Origin: Promethearchaeota archaeon
GTDB lineage: Archaea > Asgardarchaeota > Lokiarchaeia > Sigyniarchaeales > SOKP01
Length of the DNA stretch: 36,578 nt
Assembly (NCBI GenBank): GCA_019894715.1
Contig: JAGXOA010000006.1
Coordinates: 1 to 36,578, forward strand
Direction: 5' to 3'
The notes under the pieces were generated by a model. It was not told where the DNA came from. It did no database searches and saw only the letters and a list, made by a program, of their open reading frames with translations. The position numbers were made by a program, and so were the translations under genes. Positions 23,648 to 34,011 of the stretch are shown here, one piece after another (the stretch's first letter is position 1; every line of letters begins with the position of its first letter).

Positions 23648-26600
23648 CTAAATATAATTTAAGAAAAATTGGAAATAAAATAAAACAACAGTAGTAATTA
23701 ATACAATTATGAAAAAGATAGTTGAATAAAAGCGCCATTTTATTGAGATCTTCTCCCTCTTCTCTTTATAATATATATATGGTAGGAATATTGCCCCTAA
23801 TATTGTAAAGGATAAGAGAATAACAATTAAATAATATTCTGCTTCAATATAACTAAGAATTATTCCTAATATTGATACCCAAGAACTACTTAAGTAAATA
23901 ATACGATATTTTAAGATTTTACCTGGGTTTTGTTCTGAGACATTTCTTGCCATATTATAATATATGAGAAAGATTATTAATCCTATACTTATTATGAATG
24001 AGTATACCCAATATTGTTCTACATATATTCCTAAAAGTAAAAATATTACAGTTCCTATTAGAAAAGAAAAGATTGACCATATAAAAGACCAATTACGCTT
24101 CAGAAAAGAAATAATATTCTTATAAAGATTTACAATCTTAATTTTAATTAAAATTATGAATTCTTTAATTTTATCAATAAAATTATTAAAAAGGTCCTTT
24201 AATTGTTCCATAAGAAATATAAATGGAAATAGAAGTATTGAAAAAATAATAAATGAAAAACTTGAAATAAATGGAAAATAATCGAAATAATATGTAGCTT
24301 GAAAGATTGTGGTACCTATAAATATAGAGATTAATAACCAGAATAGGAAGGTAGATTTTAGAGATTTTTGTGTAAAAACCTTGAAAAAAATCGCATAAAG
24401 TAATAGTAGAATAACCAAGGAAAAATTAATATTGAAATAGATATTAAAAACAATATATTCTGGACTTAAATAAATCTCAAAAAGAATAGCCAAATCTATA
24501 CAAATGAGATTTATGAGAACAAATATTAAAATACGATTTATTTGTTCTATTTTATCATTTTTGTAATTTTTAATGATTTTAATTGCGTTTAAAAGAATAA
24601 TAATGATTATTAATGAAAAAATTATTAAATTAAGATCTAAGATTGGATCTAGAGTCAAATAAAATAATGGAAAAGTCATTATATCCAATGATAGAATTTT
24701 ATAGAGGATAAACATAAAATGGTTTCTATTTGTCTTAAAATAATTCCAATTGGTTAATAAAAATAATAAGAACATCGATTCTAAATTAATAATTAAAATG
24801 AAGATTGGGATTCTTATCATTAAAGATTGAACAAGAACAATTGGAATTGAAATAAATATAAAAGAATTTGAAGTAATCATTATTAATACCCATGATATTA
24901 CCTTTATATATTCCTTCACTCCTTCTAAAAAGTTGAATGTTATATCATCAATAAATGAGATGGAAAAGACTATTATTCCAATAATAAAAATTTGATAGAA
25001 GATATCCATATATCCAATTAGATCTTGAACAAAAACAATAAGTGAGATATATAAACATATACCTAATATTATCTTTATTTTTTTATACCAATTCTCAATG
25101 CTAGATAATTTAAATTTACTTTTAATGTCTTTATCTTTAAATTTTAATGTTCTAAACATTAAATATAAATAATTTGTTATAAATTGGACAATAACTAAAA
25201 ACATAAATGATAATTTAAAATGGACCAATGAAAAAACAAAATACCTATTTAGAGAAATGATTAAAGTGATTGAAAATAAATTAATTAATGGTATTAGTAA
25301 TAATAATATAAATCTATTATTAATTTTTTTAAATAACATCATATCCATCAATATAACTAAAATATATGTACCCAGTGAAATAGAAAGACTCGTATAGATA
25401 TCTAAATATCCAACTAAAGCTGAAAAAAGTAATAGATTCACATAAAAATAAAAAATATTAGATAATAGGGATAGAATTACGTTTGTAAATTTACTATAAC
25501 GAGATTTTAGATTAAAAATATTAATATAATTTATTGATACATAGGTAAGAATAAGATTTAGGAAAATCAAAAGATTTACCAAGAACAAAGATAATTCCCC
25601 ATAAATCAAAATATAATTTAAAATATTAAGCGTGAGAAATATTTGGAAAATTATGTACGATATAGACATAACAATTTCTATTTTTTTCTCTTTCAAAATA
25701 TTGATTAGATAAGTAAAGAATAGTAAAATTACAGCATAATAAAAGATAAAAAGAATATAATAACTAAAATTCAGATATTCCAATTCAACTAGAATATCAA
25801 GTGTACTTTCTGATAAAAAGCTAGAAACTATACCAGTTATTAATATATAGCTCAAAAATATTATGTTATTTTGAAATTTTTTAATTAATCTTATATCCTC
25901 TGGTAATAATTTTTCAGAGATAGTCAAAGAGAGAATATTTAACCCAAGCAATGAAAGTAAAAATACTAAGCATAGGGATAAGATTTCTAAAGTAGAAAAG
26001 GTTATTAATAAAGTAAAAATCATTATAGAAATTGAATTAATAGATACAAACAAAGATAATAATGCAATTTTCTTATTTTTATCTCCTGAAAAGAATTTCA
26101 TACCATAATTATTCAATAAGAGTTCTATAAATAGAATTCCATTAGATATAATGAGAAGTATAAGAGTTGTATAAATAATGGGAAAATTAAAATCCATTAT
26201 AAAATATGATACTAAACCAGATATTGAAAAAGGTATAATTGAATAGAATAATCCCCCAAAATTCTTCAAAATCCATTGGGATCCTTTTATTCCAAGAGTT
26301 TCTCCATTTATTCTCAGATAATATAAGACAAATAGATTCAAAATTGGATAGAGTGTAAAGAATGTTAATATTTGAAAATGCAAAATATTAAAACAGAATA
26401 CTGAAACTAGTAGAGAAATATAAAGAGAATCAAAAACAAAACATAATAGATGAATTTTTTTAACTTTTCTTATATTTTCAACATATTTATAGATAGGGCC
26501 ATTAGCTTTTTCTTTCTCTCTTTTTGAGAAGTTATAAAAAAGAGATATCAATATTTGGAGGGATATAAGGTATGCTAACAGAAAAAGAAATATTGTGAAG

Positions 26601-29600
26601 ATTCCGAAAATTTCAATAAAATTATAACTAGCAAGGATTAAGAAAGATAAAGGAATAGGATATAGGTAGATTAAAAGATATTTTATATTATACATAATTT
26701 TTTGAATAAAGACAAAAACAACTAAACAAGAAACCGCAATTATAAGGAAAATATTCTCTGGAATAAATAAATATAATATGGATGCAGATAGAAATGATAA
26801 ACTTAAACTTAAGAATATCCATAAAAATGTAAAATCTATAGATCTAAAGATATAATTAAAACGTTGAAAAATTATTAATGAAATTGAACAAATTGTTAAT
26901 GCTACCGCAATTGATAATATTTCCAAATTAGGAATTAAACTTAAATAGACATAGGTCAAAGAGGATAAGTTAGAAATCATTAAAATTGAAATTAAACTTC
27001 TTATAATTTTTTGATTGAGCTTAAAGTACTTTGAGCTGAGTAATGTTCCCGAAATGAAAATAGATGCTAAATTAAACGATATTATTAGGTTGTTAATTAT
27101 ATTGTAGAATATAAAAAATATTAGAAGGAATATTCCTAAAAAGATAATTGAATATGAAATTATTAGGACTGAGAAATAATTCTTTACTTTTGGAAAAAGT
27201 GAATAAATAATTAAAAATAATCCAAATGTGATAATATCAATTGAAACAACTAACTCTATATTGAGATTCATTGAGATTAGTAATACTGTTAAGAAACTTA
27301 TATTTAGAATCATTAATGATAACCAAAGCAGAGAAAGTAATTTCCAATATCTTTTTCTTAATAATATTGGTGCTAAAAGGAAGATAGAAGCAAGTCCAAA
27401 AAACAAACTTGAAAGTATCAGATTTTCTTTAAATAAATTCTGACTTGCCCAAAAAGTTAATGCAAGAGATTCACCCCAAACAGCTATTAAAATTTTAGTG
27501 AAATGTTTCCTCATCACTGAAAAAAGTGCTGGAAGATAAATTAGTGAACAGATAATGACTGTTATAATAATGGATCCTTCTATTTCAAATAATCCAAAGA
27601 AATTTACTGCCTCAGTAAATATATCTACACCAATAAAATTCCTATAAATTAGATAAAAATTAATTAGAGGTACAATTAACCATATTTTCCAACCTATTTT
27701 CCATATTGTCCAAGAGATCTTCCAATTATAGATTCCAATTGATATATAAAATAGGAGGACCATGATATTCAAGAGAATTATAATCATAATCAAATCACCA
27801 CCAAAAAATCCAAAATAGGATATCAATAGGGTGTAAATAAAAATAGGAATAAAAAGAGATATTATGATTAGAGTCAAAGTATATGTAATTTTTCTAAGTT
27901 GTTCAGGTAGGTTATTATTTAATAAAATAAATCCAATTGATGTAATGCATGAAGTTAATGTAAATGTTAAAATAATATTATAGATTAGATAATTTGGATC
28001 AGTAAATAGAAAAGAATATGAGATCCAACTAGTGATATTAAAGAAAAGTAAAATAAACCAAGGTTTAATGAACAATTTATACCGTTCATCCTCATCAAGA
28101 TAAAAATCTACAAAAATAAGAAAGAGCAAAACCATAGTGCAAATTGTTATATCATATATCAATAGAATTCTTGTAAAGCTTAATATGTAAAAGAATAAAC
28201 TACCCGTTGTAAATACAAAAAATAAGTATTTTTCAATTAAGCTCTGTTTTTTATAGTTTAAACCCATTGAAACAATCAAAATCAGATTAAAATTCATTAG
28301 ATAGATTATCATAAATAATCCTAAAGGAAACTCCAATAAAAGTTCTAAAACGCTTACACTTTCCAATACTTGAATTATCTTTAAGAAACCAACAATGCTA
28401 AGAGTAATGTATATAAAAGCTCTCTCTCTTAATCTATTTAATCTCTCTAATGATATTAGAGTATATAATATTATAAATCCAAAAATGAAATACTCAATAT
28501 TATTATAGAAGATACTGAAACAAATCAGTACGATTTCAATGAAAAAAATAAAGTATCTCTTTAAAAAATCAATTTCCCTTATTGTATTTTTTTTTTTAAT
28601 ATATAAATAGTTTATAAGGATTATACTGAATAAGTACAATAAAATTCCAATAATATCTTGAGATAATGCAATCCAATATATTTCTGAAAAAATAATATCT
28701 ATAATCAAAATCAAAAATAAAGGTGAAAATCTTTTTACCCAATCGTGGAGGTTATCCATTCTTGAATCTATACTGAAATTGATAACCAAAGGATGCAATA
28801 AAATGAAAAATAAAGTTATTAAAAGAATAAAATTAAAAATCTCAAGATTTACTAGGGTTTTAGGGATAAAATTAGAATACATCACTGAAGAACTAAGAAT
28901 AAGTGATGATTCTATTAACATTGCATAAAAATAAATTATTTTTAATAAATTTTTTATAAGATTTGTTCTATCAGACAGGGAGGGTTTTTCAATAAAATTA
29001 TAATATTCACTTAGATTTTTGATTAATTTAATACAATAAGTGCTAATCAAAAGAAATGATAAAAATATTGCATTTACAACTAGAACACCTATTATATAAG
29101 AATCAAACAAAAGTTCCAATTCAATATAATTAAATATGATAATTAAAAAAGATAAGCTTATCAAGAACCAACTAATAATGAGAGTTATTTTGATGTATGA
29201 TACTATAATTGATCGTAAATTCAGTTTATCGCTTGTAAATTCTGCAAATTTTAAAATTAAAAATAATAACAATAAAGAAAAAATAAAAATGTATATGATC
29301 TCGATTGTATTATTAATAGTTGCTAATTCAAGCTGTATAAACGTTGGAATTAATATAATTGAACATATTAAGAGAAATATATCCATAAGAATGAATTTTT
29401 GAATGAGATCTTTATTAAAGATCGCTTTCTTGTGCGAGAATAAAAGAAGTAAATATAAATAAAAGAGAGCAGTAGTCAATGGAAATATAATTTTTATATA
29501 ATGCCCTGGAATTATGTAAGACAAATAATAAAATATTGTAGTACCTGCTAAAATAAAACCTATGATTATTTGAATTTTTAAAAGAATTAATGATAATTTT

Positions 29601-32600
29601 TCTGATGTTCTTTTCTTTGATATGGAATAAAATATGAAAAGTACTGCAAAAAGAATATACAAGCTAAAATTTATTGTATTTATAAATCCAATAGAATCCT
29701 TGATTTCTAATTCTAATCCTATAAATATTGGTATTGATACAGTAAGACCAATTATGAGCAACATATCCAAAAAAGTAGATATTTGGACAAGTTTTTTATT
29801 AAAAAACTCTTTTTTATAAGTGAATATTAGAAGTATGTACAAATATGAGAGAGTCATAAGCAAAGATGCTATAATTTTTATGTATTGTCCTGGAATAATA
29901 GCATATAAATAATAAAATATTGTAGTACCTGCTAAAATAAAACCTATGATTATTTGAATTTTTAAAAGAATTAAAGATAATTTTTCTGGTGTTCTTTTCT
30001 TTGATATAAAATAAAATATGAAAAGTACTGCAAAAAGAATATACAAGCTAAAATTTATTGTATTTATGAATCCAATAGAATCCTTGATTTCTAATTCTAA
30101 TCCTATAAATGTTGGTATTGATACAGTGAGACCAATTATGAGCAACATATCCAAAAAAATAGATATTTGGACGAGTTTTTTATTGAAAAACTCTTTTTTA
30201 TATGTGAATAATAGAAGTATGTACAAGTATGAGAGTGTTATAAGCAAAGATGCTATAATTTTTATGTATTGCCCTGGAATAATAGTATATAAATAATAAA
30301 ATATCATTGTTCCAGCTAAAACATACCCGATAATTACTTGAAATTTTATTAATGAAGATAGCTTTTTTTCTGATTTCTTTTTTTTTGCTATTAAAATATA
30401 GATAAAAAGAACTCCAAGAAGAATATACAGCGTTGAATTAATAATATTAAAAATATCAACGTAAATTTCTAATTTAATTAGTTCGATACATATTATTGTA
30501 GGAATTAAAACGAAAAAAAGAGACAATATTAAATTATTATATTTTAAGAGCCGTTTGTTAAATATGGTTCCTATATTTTTTGAGATGAGATATTGGATAA
30601 AGAAATTAAAAAACACACAGAATAATATAAAGGGAATAATATAAGCAAAAGTAGAATTTAAAGTTAACAATAAAGAATAATAGAACATTATGAATGTCAG
30701 ATATAGAATGATTATAGAATTTATAAAAATCTTATATTTCTCCAGTACAGATTGATAATATCGATTTAAAATCGTGATTATTGCCCCTAACACTAATATA
30801 GAGACAAATATTGAAATATTCAAATCCAAATTTAAAATAACATAGGATAGGAGAAAAGAAATTATAGATATTTCAAAACTTATTGAAAATAAGGTTATTT
30901 TTATAAATTTACCATATCGTTCTTCTGAAATTTTATTTATTTTTTCCCCATATTTTAAAAGATATTGTATAGAACATGAAAAAATAAAAGTATGTACTAA
31001 AATAACTAATGTTATCAGCAAAGAATCAAAATTTTCAATAATAATTACAGGAATACAAGATGTAATTGCTGAAGTTATAACAATTAATGGAAGAAGAATC
31101 CAAAGACTACGATAAATAATTCCTGATATGTTTTTTATAACCTTTAAAATAGAATTAAAATATAAAAAAAATATAAAAATAACAATAAAAATTATCGCTG
31201 AAAATAATGAAAAGGAAAGAAAATAATTTGGATCAATATTTTTGAAGGCTCTAAAATCTAAAAATAAAATAAACACTAGATCTAATAAGAGAAAATTTGT
31301 AATAATCGCTGATTTTATTATTTTTGATGATTTTTCTTTAAAGAATGTTGAATTTAATCTATATAATGATATCAATAAAGTGAATAAGAAAAATATCAGA
31401 AAAATAAGAATTCGTGTTATTAATAATTCATTTGGATTTAGTATTTGTAGTACATCTTCAGTAATTACTGCGGGATAAATAGAATATGAGATTAAAAAGA
31501 ATGTTATTACTGAAAGGATATTTTGCCAGAGAACCACTTTCTCGTCTAAAAAGAGGTTAATTCGTTTAAATAATTCTAAGGAAAAATAGATTGATATAGT
31601 AAAGATCAGAAATTTAATAACAAGTAGAACGGAGTTTGGAATTATAAAAAAACTAATGTAACCTAAAGAGACAATAGTTAATATAAAATATAGGACCTCT
31701 ATATTTTTCTTTTGAATATATCCATAATCATGTTCTTTATAGATAAGGATATAAAATAGAGGTATAAAGATAAAATTAAGATAATTTAAATTACCTATAT
31801 AGAAAATCAATATTAATGTTAGTAGTAGTATGAATGTTAGTATAGCATTAAAGTTTTGATACTTTAATATTGTCTTATCTTTTATTTCATCTTTTACTAA
31901 TAGCTGAACTTCTTCCAAGGATCTAAATTTATTCTTATAATACAAATAGGTTATAATTCTGACTTTTAGATATAGAATAAAAATCAAAAAAAATGTAATT
32001 ATAAGAGGAATAAGATCAGTATAGGAAATATAACTCTGTAATGAAATAAAATATATATTTAAACCAAGTGTTATAACAAGCAGAATGAAAAATTCACTTT
32101 GAAGTGAATTTGTTATTTTTTTATCATAATTTAGAATAATTCTCTTTAATTGATTTTCTCCTAATTTTGTATCTTCTTTGAAAATTTTTCTTTCTTCTCT
32201 TGTGTAAATCATTGTTATTATAAAAAAAACACAATTGAGAATAGAAATAACTCCAGAAGATATATAAATAGCATTATAGTTAAGAGCAAAAAAGATGATA
32301 TTTGAAATATAATTGATTAATATTATGTATTTATAGACTTCTTTAATGGAATATTTTTTTTTAATATTAATGAATGATTTTATTTCTGAATTATAATATA
32401 AAATTGGCATTTTCCTTAAATAAAAGAAAATAATAGGATAAATACAAAATAAATAAATTAGAGGGATTAATTGGAATTCTAATGAAGAAAAATTTATTAT
32501 AGAAAATGCTACTGAAACAATCATAGATATTAGAGGAGTTATGAAAATTATAGTAATCCTCGTTGAAATATTTATTTTTTCTGTTCCAAAAAATGGATTT

Positions 32601-32824
32601 TTTCGATACTTATCATAGGATCTAAAGAATATAAACTGAGAAATAAAGAAGAAGAGGAATGATAGTGATAATACATAGGAAAAATTATTAAAGAAATTAT
32701 AACATAGAAAATATGAAATTGCCATAATAATTGATGGTAAAATTAAAAGATAAACACAAAACCACCAAAATTTCCAAACTATTTCTGTTGCTCTCTCTAT
32801 TTTTTGATCTGATTTACTATCCAT
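23648..32824 (-). CDS. Giant polytopic membrane protein (3058 residues)
   Basis: A single uninterrupted 9.2-kb frame encodes a protein that is almost entirely hydrophobic helices separated by short, often Lys-rich loops. By eye there are on the order of 100 transmembrane segments. The N-terminus (MDSKSDQKIERATEIVWKFW) and a few cytosolic loops (for example 'RREKEKANGPIYKYVENIRKVKK', near two thirds) are the only polar stretches. No catalytic, transporter or glycosyltransferase motif was recognised. Internal copies of a ~128-residue unit ('IIPGQYIKIIASLL' to 'ILAGTTIFYYL') are visible in the first third of the protein. The total length is close to 24 such units, so the whole protein may derive from repeated four-helix units. 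Large DUF2339-type membrane proteins are a loose analogy only. Function unknown. The ATG has no ribosome binding site. Codon composition matches its neighbours. Confidence 0.85.
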   Translation of the reverse strand: MDSKSDQKIERATEIVWKFWWFCVYLLILPSIIMAISYFLCYNFFNNFSYVLSLSFLFFFISQFIFFRSYDKYRKNPFFGTEKINISTRITIIFITPLISMIVSVAFSIINFSSLEFQLIPLIYLFCIYPIIFFYLRKMPILYYNSEIKSFINIKKKYSIKEVYKYIILINYISNIIFFALNYNAIYISSGVISILNCVFFIITMIYTREERKIFKEDTKLGENQLKRIILNYDKKITNSLQSEFFILLVITLGLNIYFISLQSYISYTDLIPLIITFFLIFILYLKVRIITYLYYKNKFRSLEEVQLLVKDEIKDKTILKYQNFNAILTFILLLTLILIFYIGNLNYLNFIFIPLFYILIYKEHDYGYIQKKNIEVLYFILTIVSLGYISFFIIPNSVLLVIKFLIFTISIYFSLELFKRINLFLDEKVVLWQNILSVITFFLISYSIYPAVITEDVLQILNPNELLITRILIFLIFFLFTLLISLYRLNSTFFKEKSSKIIKSAIITNFLLLDLVFILFLDFRAFKNIDPNYFLSFSLFSAIIFIVIFIFFLYFNSILKVIKNISGIIYRSLWILLPLIVITSAITSCIPVIIIENFDSLLITLVILVHTFIFSCSIQYLLKYGEKINKISEERYGKFIKITLFSISFEISIISFLLSYVILNLDLNISIFVSILVLGAIITILNRYYQSVLEKYKIFINSIIILYLTFIMFYYSLLLTLNSTFAYIIPFILFCVFFNFFIQYLISKNIGTIFNKRLLKYNNLILSLFFVLIPTIICIELIKLEIYVDIFNIINSTLYILLGVLFIYILIAKKKKSEKKLSSLIKFQVIIGYVLAGTMIFYYLYTIIPGQYIKIIASLLITLSYLYILLLFTYKKEFFNKKLVQISIFLDMLLIIGLTVSIPTFIGLELEIKDSIGFINTINFSLYILFAVLFIFYFISKKRTPEKLSLILLKIQIIIGFILAGTTIFYYLYAIIPGQYIKIIASLLMTLSYLYILLIFTYKKEFFNKKLVQISTFLDMLLIIGLTVSIPIFIGLELEIKDSIGFINTINFSLYILFAVLFIFYSISKKRTSEKLSLILLKIQIIIGFILAGTTIFYYLSYIIPGHYIKIIFPLTTALFYLYLLLLFSHKKAIFNKDLIQKFILMDIFLLICSIILIPTFIQLELATINNTIEIIYIFIFSLLLLFLILKFAEFTSDKLNLRSIIVSYIKITLIISWFLISLSFLIIIFNYIELELLFDSYIIGVLVVNAIFLSFLLISTYCIKLIKNLSEYYNFIEKPSLSDRTNLIKNLLKIIYFYAMLIESSLILSSSVMYSNFIPKTLVNLEIFNFILLITLFFILLHPLVINFSIDSRMDNLHDWVKRFSPLFLILIIDIIFSEIYWIALSQDIIGILLYLFSIILINYLYIKKKNTIREIDFLKRYFIFFIEIVLICFSIFYNNIEYFIFGFIILYTLISLERLNRLRERAFIYITLSIVGFLKIIQVLESVSVLELLLEFPLGLFMIIYLMNFNLILIVSMGLNYKKQSLIEKYLFFVFTTGSLFFYILSFTRILLIYDITICTMVLLFLIFVDFYLDEDERYKLFIKPWFILLFFNITSWISYSFLFTDPNYLIYNIILTFTLTSCITSIGFILLNNNLPEQLRKITYTLTLIIISLFIPIFIYTLLISYFGFFGGDLIMIIILLNIMVLLFYISIGIYNWKISWTIWKIGWKIWLIVPLINFYLIYRNFIGVDIFTEAVNFFGLFEIEGSIIITVIICSLIYLPALFSVMRKHFTKILIAVWGESLALTFWASQNLFKENLILSSLFFGLASIFLLAPILLRKRYWKLLSLLWLSLMILNISFLTVLLISMNLNIELVVSIDIITFGLFLIIYSLFPKVKNYFSVLIISYSIIFLGIFLLIFFIFYNIINNLIISFNLASIFISGTLLSSKYFKLNQKIIRSLISILMISNLSSLTYVYLSLIPNLEILSIAVALTICSISLIIFQRFNYIFRSIDFTFLWIFLSLSLSFLSASILYLFIPENIFLIIAVSCLVVFVFIQKIMYNIKYLLIYLYPIPLSFLILASYNFIEIFGIFTIFLFLLAYLISLQILISLFYNFSKREKEKANGPIYKYVENIRKVKKIHLLCFVFDSLYISLLVSVFCFNILHFQILTFFTLYPILNLFVLYYLRINGETLGIKGSQWILKNFGGLFYSIIPFSISGLVSYFIMDFNFPIIYTTLILLIISNGILFIELLLNNYGMKFFSGDKNKKIALLSLFVSINSISIMIFTLLITFSTLEILSLCLVFLLSLLGLNILSLTISEKLLPEDIRLIKKFQNNIIFLSYILITGIVSSFLSESTLDILVELEYLNFSYYILFIFYYAVILLFFTYLINILKEKKIEIVMSISYIIFQIFLTLNILNYILIYGELSLFLVNLLIFLNLILTYVSINYINIFNLKSRYSKFTNVILSLLSNIFYFYVNLLLFSALVGYLDIYTSLSISLGTYILVILMDMMLFKKINNRFILLLLIPLINLFSITLIISLNRYFVFSLVHFKLSFMFLVIVQFITNYLYLMFRTLKFKDKDIKSKFKLSSIENWYKKIKIILGICLYISLIVFVQDLIGYMDIFYQIFIIGIIVFSISFIDDITFNFLEGVKEYIKVISWVLIMITSNSFIFISIPIVLVQSLMIRIPIFILIINLESMFLLFLLTNWNYFKTNRNHFMFILYKILSLDIMTFPLFYLTLDPILDLNLIIFSLIIIIILLNAIKIIKNYKNDKIEQINRILIFVLINLICIDLAILFEIYLSPEYIVFNIYFNINFSLVILLLLYAIFFKVFTQKSLKSTFLFWLLISIFIGTTIFQATYYFDYFPFISSFSFIIFSILLFPFIFLMEQLKDLFNNFIDKIKEFIILIKIKIVNLYKNIISFLKRNWSFIWSIFSFLIGTVIFLLLGIYVEQYWVYSFIISIGLIIFLIYYNMARNVSEQNPGKILKYRIIYLSSSWVSILGIILSYIEAEYYLIVILLSFTILGAIFLPYIYYKEKREKISIKWRFYSTIFFIIVLITTVVLFYFQFFLNYI
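29523..30290 (-). repeat. Two near-identical 384-bp tandem repeats inside the giant membrane gene
   Basis: Units 29523-29906 and 29907-30290 are nearly identical at the DNA level with a period of exactly 384 bp (128 codons), so the frame is kept. A third, clearly diverged unit follows at about 30291-30674, and a weaker one precedes at about 29139-29522; both are recognisable at protein level. The high identity of the central pair points to recent duplication or gene conversion within the gene. Confidence 0.85.
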
Positions 32825-33102
32825 TGAATATCGCTCTTTGTTTAATAAATAAACTTATGACTATGCATAAAAAATTACTATAATAAATGTATCTGGAAAA
32901 AAAAATATAATTGATATTCAAAAAGTTAGAACGTCTAAATATAACATTACTTTTTATGTTAGTTCTATGAATAAATCTCAAAAAATACATTGACATATAT
33001 AACTTTCTAAAAATACAATATATATTATTTTCATTTTTGTATTTATAATATTTACGCCAATATTTTTGATGAGTTATTGAAATCATAATCATGATTTGTA
33101 TT

Positions 33103-33213
33103 TTTTCTCTATTAAAGTTTTATGAGATAATTTTGAATATATAATAGATAAGATTAAAAATATTCAATATAAAACAATCACGACTAAAATTATACAAAAA
33201 TAAGAAAAAAAAA
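33103..33213 (-). repeat. ~110-bp upstream repeat, copy A (in the 392-bp gap before the giant gene)
   Basis: This stretch matches 33911-34011 in the same orientation. A core of about 27 bp that includes CACGACTAAAATTATA is identical. The similarity then extends, with indels, to the GAGAAAAAATA region. On the minus strand the core is followed by a TTTTATAT TATA-like element. Copy A lies between the stop of the zinc-ribbon membrane gene and the start of the giant gene. The rest of 32825-33102 is A/T-rich; an open frame there (32817-33092) has no protein-like character. Confidence 0.6.
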
Positions 33214-33216
33214 GAT

Positions 33217-33819
33217 TTAGATTTTATTACCACAATAAGAGCAGTATTTCATATTTGAATTTATTTCTTGCCCACAATCTCCACAGAAGTTTGGTTGTTT
33301 TCCCCCTTCTTTTATAATTGAATCCTTTACACTATGTAAGAGATTTCCATTCATATCAAGTTTTCTTTTGATCCTTATAAGATCATTCAAATATTTCCTA
33401 TCATTCCGTGGCTTTATTTGGGCAACGATTAGAATTATGAATCCTATTATAATGTAAGGGAAATAAAGTGTGAGAGGATAATAATAGTAATAGTATGAAT
33501 TCGATGCATACAATAGTATCAATGCTATAATAGCTATTAAAAATAAGACTATACTGGAATATAGCAATAAATCACTATTTTTACTCTTTAAGTTATATGT
33601 TCTTTTTGTAGTTATATTTTCCAAATATCTAATCCTAACTTTATAGCCTGATGCTTTCTGTCCAAAAATATTTACTTGATCTGAAGGGTCTCCGAAGATA
33701 ATTCTCTTTGTAGCGAAACAATAATAAAGTTGATTATGAGAATCCTCAACATAAAACTTCGTTTTTCTTGGATTTGCATAATCTTTAATCGATCCTTCAA
33801 TGTTAATAATTCTAGTTAT
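33217..33819 (-). CDS. Membrane protein with beta-rich N-domain and C-terminal zinc ribbon (non-canonical start)
   Basis: The canonical frame begins at TTG 33624, but protein-like coding continues upstream in frame for another 65 codons: 'INIEGSIKDYANPRKT', 'FYVEDSHNQLYYCFATKRII', 'GDPSDQVNIFGQKASGYKVRIRYLEN'. That part looks like a small beta domain. No ATG, GTG or TTG lies between the in-frame TAA (33823-33825) and 33624, so the start may be ATA at 33817-33819, with GGTG 6 nt before it. Two transmembrane helices follow (LLLYSSIVLFLIAIIALILL and YFPYIIIGFIILIVA), then a cytosolic linker and a C-terminal zinc ribbon CGDC-x12-CSYC. Such membrane zinc ribbons are common, poorly understood accessory proteins. 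It is upstream of the giant membrane gene on the same strand and may work with it. Confidence 0.7.
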   Translation of the reverse strand: MTRIINIEGSIKDYANPRKTKFYVEDSHNQLYYCFATKRIIFGDPSDQVNIFGQKASGYKVRIRYLENITTKRTYNLKSKNSDLLLYSSIVLFLIAIIALILLYASNSYYYYYYPLTLYFPYIIIGFIILIVAQIKPRNDRKYLNDLIRIKRKLDMNGNLLHSVKDSIIKEGGKQPNFCGDCGQEINSNMKYCSYCGNKI

Positions 33820-33910
33820 TTTTTACACCTTTTTTTTTTTATAATTATAATTTCTATGTCATTATATAAGATATGTTAAATCTATTCTAATTTTTACATA
33901 TATTTTTTCT

Positions 33911-34011
33911 CTTTTAAAGATATATGGAAAAACTTTGAATATATAGATAAAATAAAAAAAATACTATATAAAACAATCACGACTAAAATTATATAAAAAT
34001 AGAAAAAAAAA
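33911..34011 (-). repeat. ~110-bp upstream repeat, copy B (335-bp gap before the zinc-ribbon membrane gene)
   Basis: This is the partner of 33103-33213. On the minus strand it lies about 90 bp upstream of the probable start of the zinc-ribbon membrane gene and contains the conserved core plus TTTTATATA, a good archaeal TATA box. Two leftward genes therefore appear to share a duplicated promoter region. The rest of 33820-34154 is A/T-rich with poly-T tracts and no coding signal. Confidence 0.6.

Follow-up and report, generated by a model that had tools for sequence, protein, structure and literature searches.

What does a single protein chain of 3058 residues do when nearly all of it lies in the membrane, and how does it come to be kept? 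The question is raised by one gene in the window, the whole stretch of 36,578 nucleotides analysed here, from a Promethearchaeota archaeon of the class Lokiarchaeia (contig JAGXOA010000006.1). An earlier note, made from the letters of this DNA, had rightly placed the gene at 23648-32824 with 3058 residues, leaving out its strand: the frame opens with an ATG at 32824 and runs along the minus strand down to 23648. The note had further counted about 100 membrane segments and no soluble domain. This is close to what we find: a strict, conservative hydropathy count returns 90 non-overlapping segments of 19 residues, and a hydropathy period of 32 residues leads to about 95 helices (hence a range of about 90-96). 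Loops between helices are mostly shorter than 40 residues, stretches free of segments never exceed 60, and a hydropathy scan over the whole 3058 residues found no soluble domain. Almost half of the residues (47%) are isoleucine, leucine or phenylalanine, and loops rich in Lys/Arg alternate along the chain with loops poor in them. What had escaped the earlier note is the architecture, a tandem array of hairpins. The coordinates of the features discussed below are collected in Table 1.

Table 1. Features of the giant gene and of its upstream region (window positions; residue numbers are those of the giant protein).
Feature	Position	Strand	Remarks
Giant all-transmembrane gene	23648..32824	minus	3058 aa, ~90-96 TM helices, ~48 tandem two-helix hairpins
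C-terminal arm, residues 2106-3058	23651..26509	minus	Holds expansion zone 2 (active in relatives) and conserved C-terminus
Conserved core, residues 1535-2105	26510..28222	minus	Best conserved part of the family
Trp-rich heart of core, residues 1697-1834	27323..27736	minus	Invariant residues; hairpin rhythm broken (predicted)
Three tandem 384-bp (128-aa, 4-TM) repeats	29320..30453	minus	Inside expansion zone 1
Hydrophilic linker, residues ~296-320	31865..31939	minus	Site of g2 split and G001 stop
N-terminal 8-TM module, residues 1-305	31910..32824	minus	Conserved WW, FDKYR, R89; separate ~313-aa gene in most g2 genomes
Leader copy 1, upstream of giant gene	33028..33212	minus	185 bp; two-copy direct repeat
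Zinc-ribbon membrane protein, upstream neighbour	33217..33624	minus	135 aa from TTG; frame open for 201 aa
Leader copy 2, upstream of zinc-ribbon gene	33830..34011	minus	76% identical to copy 1

In an alignment of 36 relatives the hydropathy period of 32 residues is accompanied by a charge period of 64, and the chain is therefore read as a tandem array of about 48 two-helix hairpins. An artefact of membrane rhythm was considered and rejected. Self-alignment, which the earlier note had proposed, was performed profile against profile: about 2450-2580 columns are paired at a shift of about one hairpin with a score of 552, as opposed to at most 53 when columns are permuted within classes of hydropathy, or of hydropathy combined with inside/outside location, and at most 35 when the giant is compared (hhalign) with MFS, LivH/M and DUF2339-like profiles. 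The hairpins are therefore alike beyond the rhythm imposed by the membrane. Homologous hairpins of 64 residues are found along the whole chain, which is how the present analysis defines such an array. HMMs of single hairpins, used against sequences, are too weak to detect the other hairpins, so that the repeat claim rests on the profile-profile alignment, on the periodicity and on recent duplications. Self-BLAST of the whole protein returns zero off-diagonal matches, probably by culling of contained hits. In the AlphaFold model of residues 1-640, hairpins follow each other regularly (pLDDT 81).

Recent internal duplications were detected by a chunked self-search of the giant proteins. They display shifts of 121-136, 176-184, 240-276 and 360-384 residues, that is, of 2, 3, 4 and 6 hairpins, the copies being as much as 96% identical, and this search saw none with a shift of a single hairpin. 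The window's own example is the set of three 384-bp repeats at 29320-30453. They occupy two zones that flank the conserved core, at residues about 550-1170 and about 2000-2930 (each protein in its own numbering), and these zones are gapped and poorly conserved in the family alignment. A very recent case, in the genome as assembled, is the 250-residue (8-TM) duplication at residues ~2221-2725 of the giant at locus L083 (genome G015), 94-96% identical. Together, the comparisons show an array that evidently lengthens and shortens by duplicating whole blocks of hairpins, its core and its two ends remaining fixed.

A frame of this size might still be due to chance, or be in decay. Both explanations are rejected by the existence of long, intact homologues and by the way these have diverged. 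Of 228 genomes of the phylum searched with a profile of the core, 59 have giant homologues, of 2500-4300 residues, every one in the window's own order; the named records among them are Lokiarchaeota/Lokiarchaeia MAGs. When each half of the protein is used as a query, homologues are retrieved from 55 and 49 of 147 relatives, in which the frames reach about 2500-3340 residues on contigs of sufficient length. Frames in family f2 span 3500-4297 residues, that of 4297 sitting on a single-contig genome, and the overall length across relatives goes from about 2540 to 4297 residues. Copies that look truncated in two genomes (G039 and G037) do not reflect mutations, their ends coinciding with scaffold gaps (runs of N). 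The dN/dS ratio is 0.18-0.32 over the whole length of the gene (seven pairs, 2500-3300 codons), as compared with 0.12 in the neighbouring DNA polymerase gene, and the long frame is therefore maintained by purifying selection. The earlier note, which had taken the intact 9.2-kb frame as a sign of selection, is borne out, and the absence of homologues combined with frameshifts that it had envisaged is the opposite of what genomes of the order contain. In the tree of the core most genera that have several rows make one branch, which fits vertical descent of the gene. The core profile has no match in genus g4 (five of five sampled genomes) nor in genus g7 (one of one), and the giant is therefore not essential to all.

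These data bear on a non-adaptive account, where hairpin duplications would accumulate as a ratchet, tolerated in AT-rich DNA that codes for hydrophobic residues, the core alone being functional. Recent duplications in several lineages and the poor conservation of gapped expansion zones are what a ratchet would produce. However, conservation extends to both ends and to the C-terminal arm (E3021, W3030 and R3031 at the C-terminus), the whole-gene dN/dS stays well below 1, and intact frames have lasted across the entire order. We consider this account very improbable.

The chain has a natural joint. In the sister genome G001, which belongs to the same genus as the window, an in-frame TAA interrupts the giant in a hydrophilic linker. 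In most genomes of genus g2 the first ~313 residues are a gene of their own, whose end either shares a few bases with the next gene or directly adjoins it; in several of these genomes AGGAGG or AGGTT, resembling a ribosome-binding site, stands ahead of the start of the second gene. The split and the stop fall in one and the same linker, and the N-terminal module of eight helices is therefore separable.

Is anything of this kind already known? The earlier note had recognised nothing in the protein, and this stands: against Pfam and NCBIfam no family rises above its curated cut-off, PDB sequences yield no significant match, and no description of the protein was found in the literature searched. 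Foldseek comparison of partial models with PDB folds gives nothing with E below 0.2, TM-scores being mostly below 0.25. Among the best neighbours of both models, none of them significant, soluble alpha-solenoids predominate; this at least agrees with a tandem arrangement of the modelled hairpins. DUF2339 (PF10101), a family with many transmembrane helices in one chain and a function that is unknown, had been named as the identity that would bring the giant back to familiar ground. It is rejected: the giant has no Pfam match, its own genome has no hit, and the 79 genomes of the order contain a single sub-threshold hit, to a different protein of 975 residues whose comparison with the giant profile scores 24 (hhalign), at null level. 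This many-helix membrane protein (L145, G001:C198:4661-6241) is unrelated to the giant. Membership among MFS or LivH/M-type permeases fares no better, with hhalign scores of 27 and 35, again at null level. A distant relative could emerge from a more sensitive HHsearch. As judged from these comparisons the novelty would lie in the architecture of the protein and in its lack of relatives in Pfam, NCBIfam and PDB, rather than in a demonstrated function.

Analogies are nevertheless instructive. In Piezo, tandem 4-TM units build a curved blade. As the giant is, Piezo is a large single chain dominated by helices, and recent duplications in the giant are also often 4-TM blocks. Each Piezo subunit has 38 transmembrane helices (PMC13372986). 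By contrast, the giant has about 95, its unit has two helices, it lacks a soluble cap and it is archaeal; no similarity to Piezo appears in Pfam, in PDB sequences or in the fold search of partial models. The soluble alpha-solenoids (TPR, HEAT) share with it tandem antiparallel helix pairs, but the helices of the giant are transmembrane and its sequence is unrelated. Finally, Asgard archaea have the aloposon proteins Otus and Ephialtes, giants of 3000-6000 residues; their genes stand in tandem as pairs, in Heimdallarchaeum, on mobile elements located at tRNA genes, and the same source notes many unrelated giant genes across Asgard archaea (PMC8813620). Very large size in Asgard archaea is the common trait. 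The accessible part of that account does not describe Otus and Ephialtes as membrane proteins (PMC8813620), whereas the present giant is a membrane protein encoded by a single chromosomal gene whose genera are mostly single branches of the tree. An aloposon tandem pair is not what the loci display, as each of 41 loci carries a single giant gene, and in family f1 its chromosomal neighbours are conserved.

Two rival readings place the activity in the core. Conservation in the family alignment is strongest from about residue 1500 to 2100. Its invariant, tryptophan-rich heart comprises W1708, W1715, P1719, N1722, G1750, P1765, W1783, W1792, P1819, W1827 and W1834, followed by P1878, G1897, P2056 and Y2085. 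The AlphaFold model of residues 1490-2580 (pLDDT 69, lower across the Trp-rich stretch; pTM 0.53) suggests, with moderate to low confidence, that the hairpin rhythm is interrupted in this stretch by a long helix, a small beta hairpin and short helices at the interface. This best conserved part could be catalytic, in lipid or glycan modification for example, with the array as its scaffold, and the interfacial helices and beta hairpin of the model would suit a membrane enzyme. Yet there is no family match, and the core has no cluster of invariant His, Asp, Glu or Cys, its invariant set being limited to F, W, P, N, G, S and Y. Even with a GH4 glycosidase gene upstream of the giant in 25 of 41 loci, an enzyme is improbable.

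The same core, from about residue 1640 to 2090, might instead work with the N-terminal module as a transporter, a channel or a conduit for lipids or glycans, the arrays gathering substrate or sensing tension. The invariant W/P/G/N set where the hairpin rhythm breaks and the acidic residues conserved inside C-terminal helices (D2626, E2682) are compatible with translocation, as are the neighbours: in family f1 the giant usually comes after GH4 and an aminotransferase gene, often also an MFS gene, and in g8 it lies near an amino-acid-type ABC transporter. However, no transporter family or fold was matched, and these neighbours are conserved neither outside f1 nor in the window, while gaps of 100-480 nt speak against a single operon. 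GH4 is absent from the window and the context differs outside f1; shared ancestry therefore explains the gene order as well as shared function does. A transporter or conduit is rather unlikely, if a serious candidate.

The reading that we favour, with a confidence that stays somewhat below even, is that of an intramembrane alpha-solenoid, a structural scaffold. Length varies more than 1.5-fold by whole hairpins, while the ends and core are held, and this argues for a scaffold whose arms act by their extent and not by a precise geometry; a range of about 2540-4297 residues is easier to reconcile with a spacer or scaffold than with a pump of fixed geometry. The two periods, the self-alignment, the whole-hairpin duplications, the modelled hairpins, the non-significant resemblance to soluble alpha-solenoid folds, the prevalence of W, P, G and N among conserved residues, the dN/dS values and the gene neighbours in g6 and f4 (see below) were all counted in its favour. 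The hairpins, 64 residues each with positive loops on one side, would line up next to one another as an elongated raft, probably curved, which would set the local shape or stiffness of the membrane. The Trp-rich core would anchor the protein at the interface, and cytosolic loops would dock soluble zinc-ribbon or WD40 partners. Such a device would work as the Piezo blade does, repeated 4-TM units bending the membrane, without kinship to Piezo. Several points weigh against it: solenoid packing remains a prediction, not established given the confidence of the core model and the lack of a PDB fold match with E below 0.2; the acidic residues D2626 and E2682 could serve transport; and g4 and g7 show no match to the core. 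The complete picture, that of a solenoid of about 95-110 membrane helices, growing and shrinking by hairpin blocks, which shapes or stiffens Lokiarchaeia membranes with cytosolic zinc-ribbon or WD40 partners, is doubtful as a whole.

Were the scaffold real, no known protein architecture would be its counterpart, and it would belong to the archaea that stand nearest to eukaryotes. More than twice the helices of Piezo are in any case present in one chain, conserved across an order under purifying selection. The family also provides a natural length series (2500-4300 residues) of membrane repeat proteins, a direct record of growth in whole-hairpin steps. Should the giant shape membranes, it would bear on the organisation of the cell envelope in Asgard archaea, a group with members that form protrusions. 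With its core defined and its N-terminal module separable in nature, scaffold, conduit and sensor can be tested against one another.

The sensor is the alternative that draws on the other neighbours. A giant sensing or signalling platform would pass a membrane signal to soluble partners, a histidine kinase in g1 and g3, zinc-ribbon/WD40 proteins in f4. A PAS-histidine kinase gene with the orientation of the giant lies downstream of it in the window as well as in G001, and three g3 loci have related genes. In f4, zinc-ribbon/WD40 genes follow the giant by 15-66 nt in both of the two loci where that side is sequenced. But between the kinase gene and the giant lie gaps of 113-318 nt or else another gene, kinases are common genes, and no partner is common to all lineages; we give this platform little credence. 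For the scaffold too, neighbours that differ between lineages make the inference of partners weak.

The earlier note had proposed a membrane system formed with the neighbouring zinc-ribbon protein. As an obligate partner this protein is not supported: its orthologue adjoins the giant only in G001 (55% identity), and there are 34 zinc-ribbon matches in the genome. What survives of the proposal is that other zinc-ribbon proteins adjoin the giant elsewhere, and that a leader is shared in the window's genus. In g6 a zinc-ribbon/coiled-coil gene adjoins the giant in four of four loci (gap -26 to +28 nt). Together with f4 this makes three lineages and three architectures (membrane protein in g1, coiled coil in g6, WD40 in f4), which are not orthologous. 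The zinc-ribbon-type motif occurs in 8 of 58 same-strand genes longer than 100 residues within 900 nt of the giant, versus 28 of 284 other genes, many of these 28 being of ferredoxin-type or other kinds; the enrichment is therefore not strong. Recurrence beside the giant is a possible link, suggestive only.

Several genes near the giant deserve mention in their own right. The zinc-ribbon and WD40 beta-propeller genes of f4 (L087:14258-16006, L088:4057-6102) have near them a small conserved protein, GTPase-like by eye and without a Pfam hit. The 3932-residue giant of the f2 genome G078 is preceded on its own strand by an SPFH/band-7 (flotillin-like) gene (L130:16966-18189), and in G006 two adjacent, related frames of ~960-1010 residues each lie near the giant (L098:3898-9872).

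The duplicated leader is present in its two copies in the window and nowhere else in the genome, and parts of it are present at both corresponding places in G001. An RNA element was considered for it and rejected, as Rfam gives no match in the window. Its position hints at a joint regulation of the zinc-ribbon gene and the giant in the window's genus. A frame of 91 residues (32817-33092, minus strand) overlaps the start of the giant gene, and a similar frame, of 123 residues, exists in G001; either a small gene or a conserved leader could account for it.
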